From Limosilactobacillus reuteri (GTDB taxonomy: Bacteria; Bacillota; Bacilli; Lactobacillales; Lactobacillaceae): a stretch of 64,000 bases of DNA. The DNA lies in NCBI RefSeq assembly GCF_020784725.1, contig NZ_JAJGTZ010000043.1, positions 1 to 64,000 of the forward strand. Direction: 5' to 3'. The notes below the pieces were generated by a model. It did not search any database. It worked only from the letters and a program-made list of their open reading frames with translations, and was not told the origin of the DNA. The translations under genes were made by a program, and so were the position numbers. How positions within the stretch are numbered: the stretch's first letter is position 1; the number at the start of each line of letters is the position of its first letter. Shown here one piece after another: positions 24,353 to 45,420 of the stretch.

Positions 24353-24423
24353 TTTTTAATTTACTATTGACTTTTATGAGAAATCAGTTAATATTAATGA
24401 CGATAATTTAATTATTCGATCGC

Positions 24424-24680
24424 AATGAGAAAGAAGAGTATGTTAGACGATAGCTTCAGCGAGTCTCGTTTGGTGTGAGGAGACAGTTTTAACTCTAACT
24501 GAAAATCACTTTCGAGTCTACAGCTTAAATACCAGTAAGCTGTAGTGGTTACACCCATTATCGTGTCAGCGTATCGCCATTACGGCCGTACGTGTGAGGT
24601 ATTGTTAGCAATAGCAGTACAATGATAGGGTGGTACCACGCTCAGCGTCCCTTAGCCATTTTGGCTAAGGGACTTTTTTG
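24424..24680 (+). promoter_or_regulatory. T-box leader with isoleucine-type specifier, controls brnQ
   Basis: The T-box sequence AGGGTGGTACCACG is at 24627-24640 and the terminator GTCCCTTAGCC/GGCTAAGGGAC with a T-run at 24647-24679. At the base of stem I, GAAAG pairs with CTTTC and GTTAG with CTAAC, which frames a specifier loop whose 3' strand carries ATC (24505-24507) followed by A, the usual purine. This predicts readthrough when uncharged tRNA-Ile accumulates. Confidence 0.9.
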
Positions 24681-32350: not shown

Positions 32351-33382
32351 ATGTCAAAAGTTCTTGTTGCTGCTTTAGGTGCTGCTGGTGCATTAGCTGT
32401 TGCTAACACTGCAAGTGCTGACACACAAGTTCAAGTACAATCAGGAGATACAGTATGGGGATTTGCTCAACAATACGCTACTACTGTTGATTCAATTTCT
32501 ACTGCTAACCAATTGGCTGATCCTAACGTAATTTACGTTGGTCAACAATTAGTTATCCCATCTTCTGCTATTAGTACTGCTTCTGCTGCCGCAACTGTTA
32601 CTGCACCTACTGCAACTGACAACGCTACTGCTAGTCAAGCAGCCGTTGAAACTACTGAAACAACAGCGGCATCAACTACTCCAGCTGTTTCTACCACAAA
32701 CGCAAGCAACGTAGCCGACCAAGCACAACCAACAACAGTCGTATCTGCTGCTTCTGATAACAACACTACTGCTACTCAAGTTAGTGTTACGTCCCAAGCT
32801 CCAGCCCAAGTAAGTGCTGCTTCTGCTACTATTAATGTTGCTCAAACTAGTGCTGCAAATACTAACAACAACGTTACTACTTTAGCGGCTACTACTAACA
32901 CTGCAACTCCAACACAAACTACATCCGCTACCACTGAAGCAGTTGCTACTCCACAAAGCAACACTACTGTTCAAAGTACTGCTGCTGTAACTGCTACTCC
33001 AGCAACTTCAACTCCTGCTGGTCAAGGTAATGGTTCTACTGCTAATGCGGTTGCCGTTGCGCAAGCACAAATTGGTACTCCATACGTTTGGGGTGGTAAC
33101 CAACCAGGCGGATTTGACTGCTCAGGATTAGTTCAATATGCATATGGTCTTGGTTCAAACTACCGGACTACTTACCAACAAACTAACCTTGGTGCCCACC
33201 ACAGTGATATCCAAAACGCTCAAAGTGGTGACCTTTACTTCTGGGGCCCAGATAGTGCTCCTTACCACGTTGCAATCGCTACTGGTAATGGCGGTTACAT
33301 CCAAGCTCCTACACCAGGTCAAAACGTTCAAACTGGTAACATCAATTACTACACTCCTAGTTTCTACATCAGCATGAACTAG
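32351..33382 (+). CDS. LysM-NlpC/P60 peptidoglycan endopeptidase
   Basis: 343 residues from the ATG. Signal peptide (VLVAALGAAGALAVANTASA), one LysM domain (about 26-71, VQSGDTVWGFAQQY), a 160-residue Thr/Ala/Ser-rich linker, then an NlpC/P60 domain with catalytic cysteine in GGFDCSGLVQ and histidine in YHVAIAT. It cuts peptide stems in the wall. The good ribosome site CAGGAG is 27 bases before this ATG, too far; an in-frame ATT at 32330, six bases from it, would add the basic stretch IAKKKT expected in a signal peptide. A non-ATG start is therefore possible. Confidence 0.93.
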   Translation: MSKVLVAALGAAGALAVANTASADTQVQVQSGDTVWGFAQQYATTVDSISTANQLADPNVIYVGQQLVIPSSAISTASAAATVTAPTATDNATASQAAVETTETTAASTTPAVSTTNASNVADQAQPTTVVSAASDNNTTATQVSVTSQAPAQVSAASATINVAQTSAANTNNNVTTLAATTNTATPTQTTSATTEAVATPQSNTTVQSTAAVTATPATSTPAGQGNGSTANAVAVAQAQIGTPYVWGGNQPGGFDCSGLVQYAYGLGSNYRTTYQQTNLGAHHSDIQNAQSGDLYFWGPDSAPYHVAIATGNGGYIQAPTPGQNVQTGNINYYTPSFYISMN

Positions 33383-33403
33383 GATACGAATAGCATAATC
33401 ATT

Positions 33404-33443
33404 GAGTAAGATAGAGGATTTTCTTCTACTTACTCTTTTTTCT
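33404..33443 (+). terminator. Terminator after the NlpC/P60 gene
   Basis: GAGTAAG (33404-33410) pairs with CTTACTC (33429-33435), with an inner TAGA/TCTA pairing, followed by six T. Confidence 0.8.
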
Positions 33444-33464
33444 TAGCAAATTTTAATAATTATA

Positions 33465-33492
33465 TTGACAGCTTTATTATCATTGGTTATAC
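33465..33492 (+). promoter_or_regulatory. Sigma-A-type promoter of the trp-transporter leader
   Basis: TTGACA (33465-33470), 16-base spacer, TTATAC (33487-33492). Initiation a few bases later would place the leader-peptide ATG about 28 bases into the transcript. Confidence 0.7.
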
Positions 33493-33526
33493 TTAACAAC
33501 AATCAATTATGTAGGGAGTAAGTATA

Positions 33527-33577
33527 ATGAACGCATATCAAGCTATCAACGTTAATACTCGTTGGCAAAGCCGGTAA
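33527..33577 (+). CDS. Leader peptide of the trp-transporter attenuator (16 aa)
   Basis: AGGGAG lies 9 bases before the ATG. The peptide is MNAYQAINVNTRWQSR. The single tryptophan codon TGG (33563-33565) is four codons before the stop, exactly ahead of the first leader stem (33569-33574). Position, ribosome site and the transporter downstream support a stalling peptide that senses charged tRNA-Trp. Confidence 0.75.
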   Translation: MNAYQAINVNTRWQSR

Positions 33578-33730
33578 TTCAGGTTGTTTCGTCATGGATG
33601 CGACCTGAAGAACAGATTGCATCTGTGCCGGCTGAGTTTGATGTTCATTTCAGTCCGCATGGATCCACATGCGGACTTTTATTTTGCCTTTCAAAAAACG
33701 AGGGTCCGTCATGTGGGCTCTCGTTTTTTA
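33569..33730 (+). promoter_or_regulatory. Attenuator RNA with two terminators and mutually exclusive pairings
   Basis: P1 AGCCGG/CCGGCT (33569-33574, 33628-33633) encloses P2 TCAGGTTG/CGACCTGA (33579-33586, 33601-33608) and P3 ACAGAT/ATCTGT (33612-33617, 33621-33626). Terminator 1 is AGTCCGCATG/CATGCGGACT (33652-33661, 33668-33677) with a T-run. Terminator 2 is ACGAGGGTCC/GGGCTCTCGT (33698-33707, 33715-33724) with a T-run. The P2 3' strand can pair with 33648-33660, the 5' half of terminator 1; terminator 1's 3' half (33668-33676) can pair with 33704-33713, breaking terminator 2. Confidence 0.75.
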
Positions 33731-33754
33731 TTATTTTGTGAGGTGAGATTTTAA

Positions 33755-34750
33755 ATGAAAAGAATGTATAGTTTAATTGCAATTATTATCGCTTTCCTTT
33801 GTTTCGCATTCTTTAGAGAAAACAATGGGTTCGTAACTAAGCAACGAATTCCAAAAGTCGGTGTGTTAACCTTGATGCACCACCCAGCGTTAGATGAAAT
33901 TTACAAGGGATATGTTGATGAATTAGCAAAGGAAGGTTACCACAACGGTAAGAATATCAAGATTGAGTATCAAAATGCGAATGGTGACCAAAGTAATCTT
34001 AAAACAATGGCTTCAAAACTTGTTAATGATAACTCAACTGTTCTTTTTGGAATTACAACTCCTGCGGCACAAGCATTAGCTAATTCTACTACCAAAACAC
34101 CAATTGTACTTGGTGCAGTTACCGATCCAAAAGCAGCTGGATTAGTTAAAAATAATCAACATCCTGGGGGCAACATCACCGGAGTATCCGACCAAGCACC
34201 AATTCGCGAACAACTCAACTTGATCAAGCAATTTATGCCGCGAATGAAAACACTCGGAGTCATCTACACTTCAAGTGATGCTTCAGCAGTAGCCGGTTAC
34301 CACCAAATCAAACGTGAATGTCGCAAGATGAATATTAACTTGAAGGCCTATTCAATTGCCAACAGTAACGACTTAAATCAGGTTTCCGAACAAATGCTTA
34401 GCCAGGTTGATGCAGTAATTGTACCAACAGATAATACGATCGCTGGGGCAATGCAAACCTTAGTTAAGAATGCCGATGCCGCTAACAAACCAGTCTTCCC
34501 AGCAACTGACACAATGGTTAAGCAAGGTGGCGTTGCAACTTACAGTGTTAACCAGCGTGCTCTAGGTGTCCAAGGCGCAAAAATGACCGTTGCAATTCTC
34601 AAAGGCAAATCAAAGCCCGCGGATACTCCAATTGAATATATGAAGCATGGGACGCCTGTTCTCAACATTAAGCAAGCTCGAAAACTTAATTTACAAATTC
34701 CCGCTCAATTTGAAAAGGATGCAGAAGCGAAAGGAGAGATTTACAAATGA
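33755..34750 (+). CDS. trpX: Tryptophan-type ABC transporter substrate-binding protein
   Basis: 331 residues. N-terminal hydrophobic segment (about 4-20) without a clear lipobox, so a membrane-anchored binding protein. The body has the ABC_sub_bind family pattern (KVGVLTLMHHPALDEIYKGY in part, VPTDNTIAGAM, FPATDTMVKQGG), as in TrpX/YcjN-like proteins of streptococci. First gene of a three-gene importer operon; its stop overlaps the permease start. The tryptophan assignment rests on the family and on the TGG codon in the leader peptide. Confidence 0.88.
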   Translation: MKRMYSLIAIIIAFLCFAFFRENNGFVTKQRIPKVGVLTLMHHPALDEIYKGYVDELAKEGYHNGKNIKIEYQNANGDQSNLKTMASKLVNDNSTVLFGITTPAAQALANSTTKTPIVLGAVTDPKAAGLVKNNQHPGGNITGVSDQAPIREQLNLIKQFMPRMKTLGVIYTSSDASAVAGYHQIKRECRKMNINLKAYSIANSNDLNQVSEQMLSQVDAVIVPTDNTIAGAMQTLVKNADAANKPVFPATDTMVKQGGVATYSVNQRALGVQGAKMTVAILKGKSKPADTPIEYMKHGTPVLNIKQARKLNLQIPAQFEKDAEAKGEIYK

Positions 34751-35646
34751 ATCTAATTGTATCGTCAATCGGTCAAGGGCTATTATGGGCTTTACTTGGT
34801 CTTGGCCTTTACCTGACTTTTAGAATTCTTGATTTTGCGGATATGACTGTTGAAGGAACTTTCCCTCTTGGTGCTGCCAGTGCTGTTGCTGCAATCACAC
34901 ATGGCATTAATCCCTTTTTGGCAACTTTAATTGCGATTGGTGCGGGAATGCTCGCCGGTTTGATCACCGGGTTGCTCTACACTAAAGGAAAAATCCCAAG
35001 TTTATTAGCCGGAATTTTAACGATGACTGCCGCTTACTCTGTTAACCTCCGCATTATGGGTAAATCAAACGTTTCATTGCTTGGCCAAAAGACACTTTTT
35101 AGTGGGGAATTCATGCGAAGTCTGCCCCAATACTTTGATAGTGTCTTCTTGGGAATAGTTACGATTGCGATTATTACCGTAATCCTAGTCTTCTTCCTTT
35201 CAACTGACTATGGACAGGCCTTCATCGCGACTGGTGATAATCCTGTAATGGCCAAATCATTTGGGATTCATACCGACACAATGGTCATCATCGGCCTAAT
35301 GGTGTCAAACGGAATCGTTGGCCTTTGTGGGGCATTGATTGCTCAAAACAATGGGTATGCTGATATTAATATGGGAATTGGGACGATTGTTATCGCCCTT
35401 GCCTCAATCATTATTGGTGAAGTAGCCTTTGGTGAATTAACGCTTAACCAGCGACTTGTAGCCGTTACTCTTGGTAGTATCATTTACCGAATCATCTTAC
35501 TTGCCGTGCTACAACTTGGTTTCTCTGCCAACGACCTCAACCTTATCTCCTCCGTTGTTCTTGCAATCTGCATGATGTTGCCACAACTTGAAGAACGCAT
35601 TCACCTAAAAAAGCCAATTTTGAAAGGAGTCCGGCCTCATGAATAA
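34747..35646 (+). CDS. trpY: ABC transporter permease (tryptophan-type)
   Basis: 299 residues, eight or nine hydrophobic segments, of the BPD_transp_2 / LivM-like permease type (LYLTFRILDFADMTVEGTFP in part, SLLAGILTMTAAYS). It overlaps the preceding gene by four bases and the ATPase gene by eight. It forms the membrane channel with the ATPase and binding protein. Substrate inferred from the operon leader. Confidence 0.88.
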   Translation: MNLIVSSIGQGLLWALLGLGLYLTFRILDFADMTVEGTFPLGAASAVAAITHGINPFLATLIAIGAGMLAGLITGLLYTKGKIPSLLAGILTMTAAYSVNLRIMGKSNVSLLGQKTLFSGEFMRSLPQYFDSVFLGIVTIAIITVILVFFLSTDYGQAFIATGDNPVMAKSFGIHTDTMVIIGLMVSNGIVGLCGALIAQNNGYADINMGIGTIVIALASIIIGEVAFGELTLNQRLVAVTLGSIIYRIILLAVLQLGFSANDLNLISSVVLAICMMLPQLEERIHLKKPILKGVRPHE

Positions 35647-36403
35647 ACCTATTTTAGAATTGCAAGGCGTCAAAACCATTGTTAATAAGGGCACATCTAG
35701 TGAAACGACTATTCTTAAGGGCTTAAACCTTAAAATTAATGAGGGAGACTTCATTACAATCGTTGGAACGAATGGTGCCGGTAAATCGACTCTTTTTAAT
35801 GTCATTGGTGGAAACCTGCACGCTGACGAAGGAAAAATTTTGCATAATGGACAAGATATTACCAATACGACAGAAGAACAGCGAACAGCTTTCCTATCCC
35901 GTGTTTTTCAAGATCCAAAATTGGGAACGGCTGCGCGAATGACAGTTGCTGAAAATATGTTGTTAGCAACTAAGCGGGGTGAGCGTCGCCATCTTATTCC
36001 TCGGAAGCTCAAAAGTAACATGGAACGTTTCACCAAGCTAGCTGCAACAATGAATAACGGCCTCGAAAATCGTATGAATACAGCTACCGGCGCCCTTTCA
36101 GGAGGACAACGGCAAGCATTAAGTTTTTTAATGGCAACAATCAAACGACCTGATATTATTTTGCTGGATGAACACACTGCTGCTCTTGACCCGCACACAA
36201 GTCTAAATTTATTACACGCTACTAATGAACGGATCACTAAAGATCATTTAACCGCTCTAATGATTACCCATAACCTTGAAGATGCCTTAGAGTATGGGAA
36301 TCGTCTAATCGTGCTTAAAGATGGTGAAATCAAAGCAGATTTTAATGCAGAGCAACGAAAATCTCTTACTCCTGAGAAACTTTATACTTATTTTGAAGGA
36401 TAG
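35639..36403 (+). CDS. trpZ: ABC transporter ATPase (tryptophan-type)
   Basis: 254 residues. Walker A GTNGAGKST, signature LSGGQRQALSFLMAT and Walker B DIILLDEHTAALD. The histidine in LLDEHTAALD in place of the usual proline is frequent in this sub-family. It overlaps the permease by eight bases, with AAAGGAG inside the end of the permease gene. It supplies ATP hydrolysis for the importer. Confidence 0.92.
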   Translation: MNKPILELQGVKTIVNKGTSSETTILKGLNLKINEGDFITIVGTNGAGKSTLFNVIGGNLHADEGKILHNGQDITNTTEEQRTAFLSRVFQDPKLGTAARMTVAENMLLATKRGERRHLIPRKLKSNMERFTKLAATMNNGLENRMNTATGALSGGQRQALSFLMATIKRPDIILLDEHTAALDPHTSLNLLHATNERITKDHLTALMITHNLEDALEYGNRLIVLKDGEIKADFNAEQRKSLTPEKLYTYFEG

Positions 36404-45203: not shown

Positions 45204-45420
45204 ATTAATGCCGAACAAGTCATTGCAACTGTTCGGTATTAGTGCTAGGATAACTACATTAAATAAATAGCCTATATAATACCGAAATATGGTCGGTTAG
45301 TCTCTACCTAAAGCCGTAAACTTTAGACTATAAGCACTTCTTAAAAACTGACACTGTCTGTTTTTAATTTAAAGCTTTAAAAATCGGTAGAGAGGCTGAA
45401 CTTTCAGTCTCTTATTTTTA
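45204..45420 (+). promoter_or_regulatory. Purine riboswitch (guanine/xanthine type) with terminator
   Basis: The conserved core is present: TATAAT at 45274-45280, ATATGG (45287-45292), TCTCTACC (45301-45308), CCGTAAA and GACTATA (45326-45332). The position equivalent to C74 of the xpt aptamer is C, which predicts guanine, hypoxanthine or xanthine rather than adenine. A stem AGAGGCTGAA/TTCAGTCTCT (45391-45412) with TTATTTTTA is the terminator. A separate hairpin (TGCCGAACA/TGTTCGGTA, about 45212-45240) precedes the aptamer. Confidence 0.9.

Follow-up and report, generated by a model that had tools for sequence, protein, structure and literature searches.

A putative tryptophan leader-peptide attenuator before the trpX importer operon of Limosilactobacillus reuteri and its kinship with the trpB motif

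Introduction

How is the trpX-type ATP-binding cassette (ABC) importer operon of Limosilactobacillus reuteri switched on, and by which kind of RNA? In the stretch analyzed here (the window, 64,000 nucleotides; assembly GCF_020784725.1, contig NZ_JAJGTZ010000043.1, positions 1 to 64,000 of the forward strand), a leader of about 260 bases lies between a LysM/NlpC-P60 gene and this operon. The initial annotation, made by a model from the letters alone, had read it as a Trp-codon attenuator in which a stalled ribosome opens two successive terminators by a relay. We found that the leader is very probably a leader-peptide transcription attenuator, which would induce the trpX importer at low levels of charged Trp-tRNA. 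The leader open reading frame (ORF), the conservation and covariation of its helices and the match of leader codons with downstream genes across relatives were computed.

The RNA has been published in another context. The trpB motif (SRC-39-1, Nucleic Acids Research (NAR) 2024; Rfam RF04312) is classed in the main text of PMC11109978 among the strong riboswitch candidates; more than 900 representatives are given for it in Firmicutes and Fusobacteria, mostly upstream of an amino-acid-type ABC transporter and sometimes of trpB. There the authors assign an antiterminator to the right shoulder of its P1 and state that a classic attenuator cannot be ruled out, and the wording "leader peptide" is absent from that main text. 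In the open-licence literature we found no paper linking RF04312 or the trpB motif to a leader peptide, nothing on an attenuator of a TrpX ABC transporter or a trpXYZ leader peptide, and no leader peptide with tandem terminators and an antiterminator relay; the consulted passages of PMC4833913 do not describe the element. The initial annotation knew of no described attenuator with this relay, and none was found in that literature.

Results

The annotated layout of promoter, leader and two terminators before a Trp transporter was confirmed (Table 1). A short ORF led by a Shine-Dalgarno (SD) sequence holds a single Trp codon, and the first downstream gene matches the NCBIfam equivalog ABC_SBP_TrpX (NF041285) with 469.7 bits against a cut-off of 390; the codon and the gene concern the same amino acid, as is expected of an attenuator. 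Two terminator-like hairpins were detected in 33380-33800 by pattern scan, where shuffled sequences average 0.2 terminators, and the helices P1 and P2 and both terminators (T1 and T2) were all obtained by folding of the leader RNA. The Rfam covariance search of the window gave no T-box or other Rfam family at cut-off at the leader locus.

The trpX gene is present in 44 of 50 genomes of the genus. The leader end TGG-CAA-AGC-C[GA]G was found in 72 of 78 loci, these 72 being selected by the pattern itself; 52 are distinct, 51 from the genus (including a paralogue about 57% identical) and one from Paucilactobacillus. The six loci lacking the pattern are two decayed remnants in the window's own genome (L002 and L003; L and G numbers are our handles for loci and genomes), two loci from outside the family (L058 and L059), L075, and L008, where by sequence the gene follows immediately on a permease end. 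R1, a covariance model of the element, matched 252 of 397 Lactobacillaceae genomes and 27 of 40 genera. Loci were read from 14 of these 27 genera, the other 13 having weaker matches. Trp occupies the regulatory position in 105 of 109 loci from 13 other genera (WQSR, WWRR, WQGQ, WQSRLSRL etc.), a count partly by construction since R1 contains the Trp codon.

Four loci of one genus (L125, L127, L129 and L130) carry CTG CGA in place of the Trp codon (LRSR or LRSQ) and are possibly an arginine version of the element. The genes behind three of them encode a family-3 binding-protein/permease fusion (L125 and L130 by hidden Markov model (HMM), L129 by sequence), and that behind L127 an OppA-like protein. 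The genome of the window also holds a decayed second copy (G000:C34:104418-104982, minus strand; L002, L003 and L194), with TrpX-like gene fragments, one with an internal stop, and an RF04312-like remnant without recognisable leader.

A permissive Rfam search placed RF04312 over 33591-33686 with 48.4 bits (E 6.6e-6), which does not reach the curated cut-off of 59 bits. On this score we regard the leader as a sub-cut-off homologue of the motif and do not count it as a filed member. The cut-off is exceeded, with 60.1 bits, by a TrpX leader of the same genus (genome G017), and the two hairpins of the motif were recovered in 6 of 12 related loci searched, all below the cut-off. These hairpins align with an alternative helix (AH) and T1 of the window, the second being the terminator, and the antiterminator proposed in the main text of the published model corresponds to strand 3 (33617-33636) of the window element.

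The RF04312 model begins 28 bases downstream of the Trp codon and therefore does not select for a leader. At E values up to 0.001 it matched 211 of 395 genomes in the order (59 of them above the cut-off), 19 of 348 in a sample of the class (five outside the order), 11 of 245 in the class of a Firmicutes metagenome-assembled genome (MAG), and 39 of 61 in the family and 38 of 98 in the phylum of a Fusobacterium locus. From the matches, 121 loci were fetched, the best plus chosen others. An SD-led ORF of 8-40 codons ending beside the motif was present in 112 of them, compared with 73 of 715 shifted control positions (10%). A second model, R2, built from 32 RF04312 loci, matched 15 of 240 genomes of the Firmicutes class of the MAG and 60 of 98 in the Fusobacterium phylum, where a single genome can hold as many as nine copies; 40 further loci of this phylum were read.

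The codons of these leaders fit the genes behind them. Among 144 loci with leader and gene, 141 fall in BLAST families anchored by HMM-annotated representatives and three have no assigned family; a leader was scored as a match if one or more of its last 14 residues were cognate. In families with an HMM-fixed amino acid, a cognate residue was found in 102 of 104 leaders and at least two residues in 91: Trp before TrpX (47/49) and TrpB (4/4), His before HisZ-like (17/17), Pro before PutP (12/12), Asn before AsnA (5/5), Tyr before TyrS (4/4), Thr before ThrS (4/4), Thr/Ile/Met before aspartate-semialdehyde dehydrogenase (Asd, 4/4), aromatic residues before DAHP synthase (2/2), and Met before MetN (2/2) and MetG (1/1). 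For the HisZ representatives L182 and L308, for MetN and for one PutP cut by the contig stretch, the best family was taken despite a sub-cut-off score. Of the loci found with RF04312, 73 of 75 match, and of those found with R2, 29 of 29; R2 contains the leader end and R1 the Trp codon, which makes leaders found with them partly a product of construction, and the RF04312 set is free of this. The mean cognate fraction was 0.23, the highest of 5000 shuffles being 0.103, and in five gene clusters a cognate residue occurred in 71 of 74 loci versus 11 of 441 control positions. The codon-gene match supports the Trp-codon leader-peptide attenuator that had first been proposed for the transporter.

All 31 leaders before family-3 binding proteins (SBP_bac_3) carry at least two His codons. 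The best HMMs of these proteins are lysine/arginine/ornithine or cystine families, below cut-off, and because they do not name histidine the 31 loci were removed from the count (133/135 if included); from the leader codons, their substrate is predicted to be histidine. Leaders with five Tyr codons stand before AGCS-type carriers in L299 (by HMM), L390 and L403 (by BLAST) and suggest tyrosine as the substrate of these carriers. Aromatic leaders also precede NSS transporters at three loci. The six NSS/AGCS loci have no fixed cognate and lie outside the match count. In L389 and L402, Met-rich ORFs without an SD match were seen by eye before homoserine dehydrogenase and O-acetylhomoserine sulfhydrylase genes. 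The Asd gene lies about 615 bases downstream of the element in three of the four Asd loci, and a tandem glycine riboswitch was observed at L394:534-677, between the Thr/Ile/Met leader element and the aspartate-semialdehyde dehydrogenase gene.

Helix conservation was assessed in an alignment (A1) of 36 of the 37 non-redundant sequences out of the 52 distinct leaders, the divergent L078 being left out. By direct count, 97% of cells are paired in P1, 82% in P2, 89% in P3 and 97% in T1. In AH, which pairs strand 3 with the 3' strand of P2, 90.6% of cells are paired, with 32 double-change cells compared with 7.8 in shuffles (0/500 as high). In the antiterminator AT1, which pairs strand 3 with the 5' arm and loop of T1, 92.2% are paired, with 40 double-change cells compared with 16.5 (0/500), and in 11 sequences one G-C pair is replaced by A-U. 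Because relatedness is not accounted for in the shuffles, a slid-partner control is important for AT1: when slid by 1-3 columns, its pairing drops to 20-46%. Swap tests covered 107 RF04312 loci that have both a leader and a gene and fall into 21 sequence groups; they gave -5.8 kcal for P1 (leader end with strand 3), -7.6 kcal for AH, partly circular because strand 3 was located through AH, and -3.3 kcal for AT1 (19 of 21 groups), each with p = 5e-5. AT1 and T1 overlap at 33652-33661 and are thus mutually exclusive, as is expected of the antiterminator and terminator of an attenuator.

The conserved trigger is, judging from the alignment, the pairing of 33621-33636 with 33649-33664 (AT1), and it differs from the first step of the initial annotation, in which the 3' strand of P2 was to open T1. 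That pairing gave 74.1% paired cells against 72.0% in shuffles (10/500 reach this) and 15 pair types against 15.9; the covariation check proposed with it thus favoured AT1 and AH by cells, but not the P2-T1 duplex. Both duplexes of the annotated relay do exist physically in the window, 33598-33610/33648-33660 with -11.5 kcal (RNAduplex) and 33668-33677/33703-33713 with -12.7 kcal, but the former has 10 pairs round a 2x2 internal loop instead of the 12 described.

By the textbook footprint, a ribosome should extend to about 33575 when TGG occupies its A site and to about 33587 when it stands at the stop codon; in the first position it would mask P1 and not P2, in the second the 5' strand of P2. 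The stalled ribosome had been supposed to cover both P1 and the 5' strand of P2, of which only the first part agrees with this reach. Ribosome pausing, the ribosome footprint, the order of folding and read-through are inferred, and the proposed course is as follows. Strand 3 would have three alternative partners, namely the leader codons (P1), the 3' strand of P2 (AH) and T1 (AT1). Without a ribosome it would pair with the leader codons; with a ribosome at the stop codon, P2 would be blocked and strand 3 would pair with the freed P2 3' strand. When the ribosome pauses at TGG, P1 would be masked, P2 would form, and the free strand 3 could pair with the 5' arm and loop of T1 and open this terminator. 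The 3' arm and U tract of T1, once freed, would then pair with the 5' arm of T2 (AT2), and both terminators would open in sequence. The RNA scaffold, homologous to the Rfam trpB motif, would be retargeted to other amino acids through changed leader codons. As long as the T1 3' arm has not emerged, the Trp stall gives -33.6 kcal for P2 with AT1 and -20.9 kcal for P2 with P3. Once T1 is complete, it outweighs AT1 by 5.6 kcal in the Trp stall, by 14.7 kcal with the ribosome at the stop codon and by 16.9 kcal without ribosome.

For AT2, the duplex energy of every T1 3' region with every T2 5' region was calculated and the row and column means were removed (swap test). True combinations were on average 3.7 kcal more favourable, and this held in all 14 Lactobacillaceae genera examined (p = 5e-5, the lowest value that 20,000 permutations can give). 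For the mirror pairing, T1 5' with T2 3', the test gave -0.5 kcal across genera (p = 0.088), and its low specificity speaks against simple duplication as the cause of AT2; as a candidate helix in its own right it was rejected, having a duplex of -12.2 kcal in the window but little swap specificity across genera. Outside the Lactobacillaceae, two terminators occur in 27 of 50 TrpX loci, and there the AT2 test was negative in energy in 6 of 6 groups (p = 0.0013; mirror -0.8 kcal, p = 0.093). The program found one terminator in 44 of 161 loci, for which the 34 bases before T2 served as the T1 3' side. The swap test was performed without L123 and L140 (T1 alone found by the program), L218 (T2 not conserved) and L078. 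When the RNA from strand 3 on was folded with pairing spans capped at 46 bases, which excludes P1 and AH, the outcome was AT1 plus AT2 in L016 (20 AT2 pairs), L018, L022, L026, L048 and L050, and T1 plus T2 or mixtures in other species. In 23 of 151 loci, e.g. L147 and L072, T1 has no run of four U and T2 keeps its own U run; the program listed 41 of 151, 23 were kept by eye after dropping entries with the U run inside the called arm or with a misplaced arm, and seven loci were skipped. Lacking such a run, T1 is unlikely to stop transcription in those loci, where a relay is its most plausible role.

Table 1. Features of the leader and the importer operon (positions in the window)
Feature	Position	Strand	Remark
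LysM/NlpC-P60 gene	32351-33382		upstream neighbour of leader
Promoter, sigma-70 type, TTGACA-17-TATACT	33465..33493	+	near-consensus, 11/12 matches, pattern scan
SD AGGGAG of leader ORF	33513-33518	+	
Leader ORF MNAYQAINVNTRWQSR, 16 codons	33527..33577	+	ATG 33527, stop TAA 33575-33577
Regulatory Trp codon TGG	33563..33565	+	sole Trp codon of leader; invariant in A1, partly built in because A1 rows were picked by a pattern that includes TGG
P1 5' strand (Ser-Arg codons)	33569..33575	+	partner 33627-33633; no-ribosome state
P2 hairpin	33578..33609	+	folding; 5' strand expected to be masked by ribosome at stop codon
AH alternative helix	33593..33627	+	33593-33603/33617-33627 plus 33589-33591/33629-33631; would sequester strand 3
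AT1, putative antiterminator	33621..33664	+	33621-33628/33657-33664 and 33630-33636/33649-33655; -19.3 kcal
Terminator 1 (T1)	33652..33677	+	folding, pattern scan
AT2, putative relay helix	33668..33713	+	33668-33685 (T1 3' arm and U tract) with 33695-33713 (T2 5' arm and loop), 17 pairs
Terminator 2 (T2)	33693..33729	+	folding, pattern scan
trpX-type ABC importer operon	33755-36403	+	
TrpX substrate-binding lipoprotein	33755..34750	+	NF041285, PF04392
ABC permease of importer	34747..35646	+	PF02653
ABC ATPase of importer	35639..36403	+	PF00005

Elsewhere in the window, the sole T-box at cut-off lies at 24416-24655 (plus strand, 111.4 bits), and a purine riboswitch aptamer was detected at 45252-45350 (plus strand, 70.7 bits).

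Discussion

Several results weigh against the ribosome-operated attenuator and its relay. Nine of the 121 RF04312 loci have no leader, including L188, L189 and L191, and only two of the five class-sample matches outside Lactobacillales have one; the three leaderless loci, which are the remaining class matches outside the order, indicate that weak RF04312 matches are partly chance. The two misses among the 104 codon-gene comparisons are TrpX-like loci (L186 and L190) with Tyr/Phe leaders. Their proteins, with 384 and 269, stay below the TrpX cut-off of 390 and are possibly importers of a different aromatic amino acid. Counted by pairs, covariation is modest, with 6 against 3.9 for AH (25/500 shuffles reach it) and 7 against 5.4 for AT1 (59/500). 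At equilibrium T1 wins in every state, with a probability of 1.0 even in the Trp stall and 0.02 for the AT1 core (RNA 33576-33680), and full opening costs 9.5 kcal of stability relative to the closed state (-50.3 vs -59.8). Read-through therefore needs a kinetic trap, the usual assumption for attenuators. Until T1 emerges, AT1 has a slight advantage both in the absence of a ribosome (-33.6 vs -32.2 kcal for P1) and with the ribosome at the stop codon (-17.3 vs -13.7 kcal for AH), so P1 and AH must act by forming first; both are made earlier. Within the window's genus the AT2 swap test is weak (p = 0.056; mirror pairing p = 0.022); the annotated T1-T2 link is supported across genera and in the outside groups. 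A cruder decoy test of AT2, with decoys from other genera, reached p < 0.05 in 26 of 146 loci (50 of 146 against shuffles, 39 of 146 for a mirror-type control); its query included the T1 5' arm, L123 and L140 were left out, and it was replaced by the double-centred swap test.

A riboswitch binding an amino acid or a related ligand, with the short ORF being incidental, is what the strong-candidate classification and the more than 900 representatives in the main text of PMC11109978 would favour. We consider it very improbable, since the leader ORF accompanies nearly all of the RF04312 loci read, the codon identity fits the gene, and much of the conserved sequence sits in three alternative helices. 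A ribosome arrested at the stop codon by free tryptophan or by the WQSR end, in the manner of TnaC, seems just as improbable: the WQSR end is highly conserved and TnaC too has its Trp within the peptide, but sister loci swap Trp for runs of His, Asn, Tyr, Thr or Met before matching genes, the AGC CGG codons are held at the nucleotide level by P1 pairing, and an importer should be induced by starvation. The trigger first annotated, with the ribosome masking the 5' strand of P2 and the 3' strand opening T1, fares slightly worse still. Its duplex is present in the window and its paired cells lie slightly above shuffles, but by only about two points, one pair fails in 19 of 36 sequences, and the P2 3' strand sits in AH (probability 1.0) once T1 is made while P2 is blocked.

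More weight must be given to T2 as an independent back-up terminator, in which case T1 alone would be regulated and the T1-T2 complementarity would have no role. The lower stability of the open state compared with both terminators and the weak AT2 signal within the genus agree with it, as does the presence of exactly one terminator in 45 of 50 loci before SBP_bac_3, HisZ, TrpB, PutP and TyrS genes. We nevertheless regard a back-up T2 as rather unlikely, because AT2, unlike the mirror pairing, is specific in all genera and outside groups compared, the operon would be blocked by an unregulated T2, and several clades have a T1 that lacks the U run.

Judging by the leaders and codons of its loci, the RF04312 class is most likely a codon-retargetable leader-peptide attenuator. 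If true, leader codons predict substrates of unassigned transporters, His for family-3 binding proteins and Tyr for AGCS carriers, and an orphan riboswitch candidate with its many published representatives becomes a testable ribosome-operated attenuator. Classical attenuation would be extended in Lactobacillales and to Fusobacterium relatives, and a single scaffold appears to act in the import and biosynthesis of many amino acids and in the charging of their tRNAs. As a mechanism, the two-terminator relay would be unusual, with strand release handed from one terminator to the next.

His-codon runs with alternative hairpins upstream of his genes, hisS*/hisZ, in Firmicutes and His leader peptides in some Bacillus, Peptostreptococcaceae (with Lutispora) and Erysipelotrichales are described in the consulted sections of PMC2965389 and PMC9413887. 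They share the cognate codon runs and alternative hairpins with the present class, and those sections make no link to the trpB motif, to the other amino acids of the class or to Fusobacteria. As His-codon leaders were already described in Firmicutes, classical attenuation is a known kind of control there. The attenuators trpL, hisL and thrL of E. coli consist of a short ORF with cognate codons, mutually exclusive helices and an intrinsic terminator before the structural gene. The window leader shares all three and adds a helix with the leader codons (P1), three alternative partners for the antiterminator strand, a second terminator that would be opened by relay, and a scaffold reused for many amino acids. 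T-boxes bind tRNA directly, need no translation and are retargeted by one codon-like element of a common scaffold. We think it likely that one homologous scaffold, spread over Lactobacillales, a further Firmicutes class and Fusobacterium relatives, is the leader-peptide counterpart of the T-box, retargeted by leader codons to at least seven single amino acids (Trp, His, Pro, Tyr, Asn, Thr and Met) and to mixtures (Thr/Ile/Met, aromatic), with the two-terminator domino gained in the Lactobacillales trpX branch. The retargetable single scaffold would then be common to both classes, and tRNA binding without translation a feature of the T-box alone.

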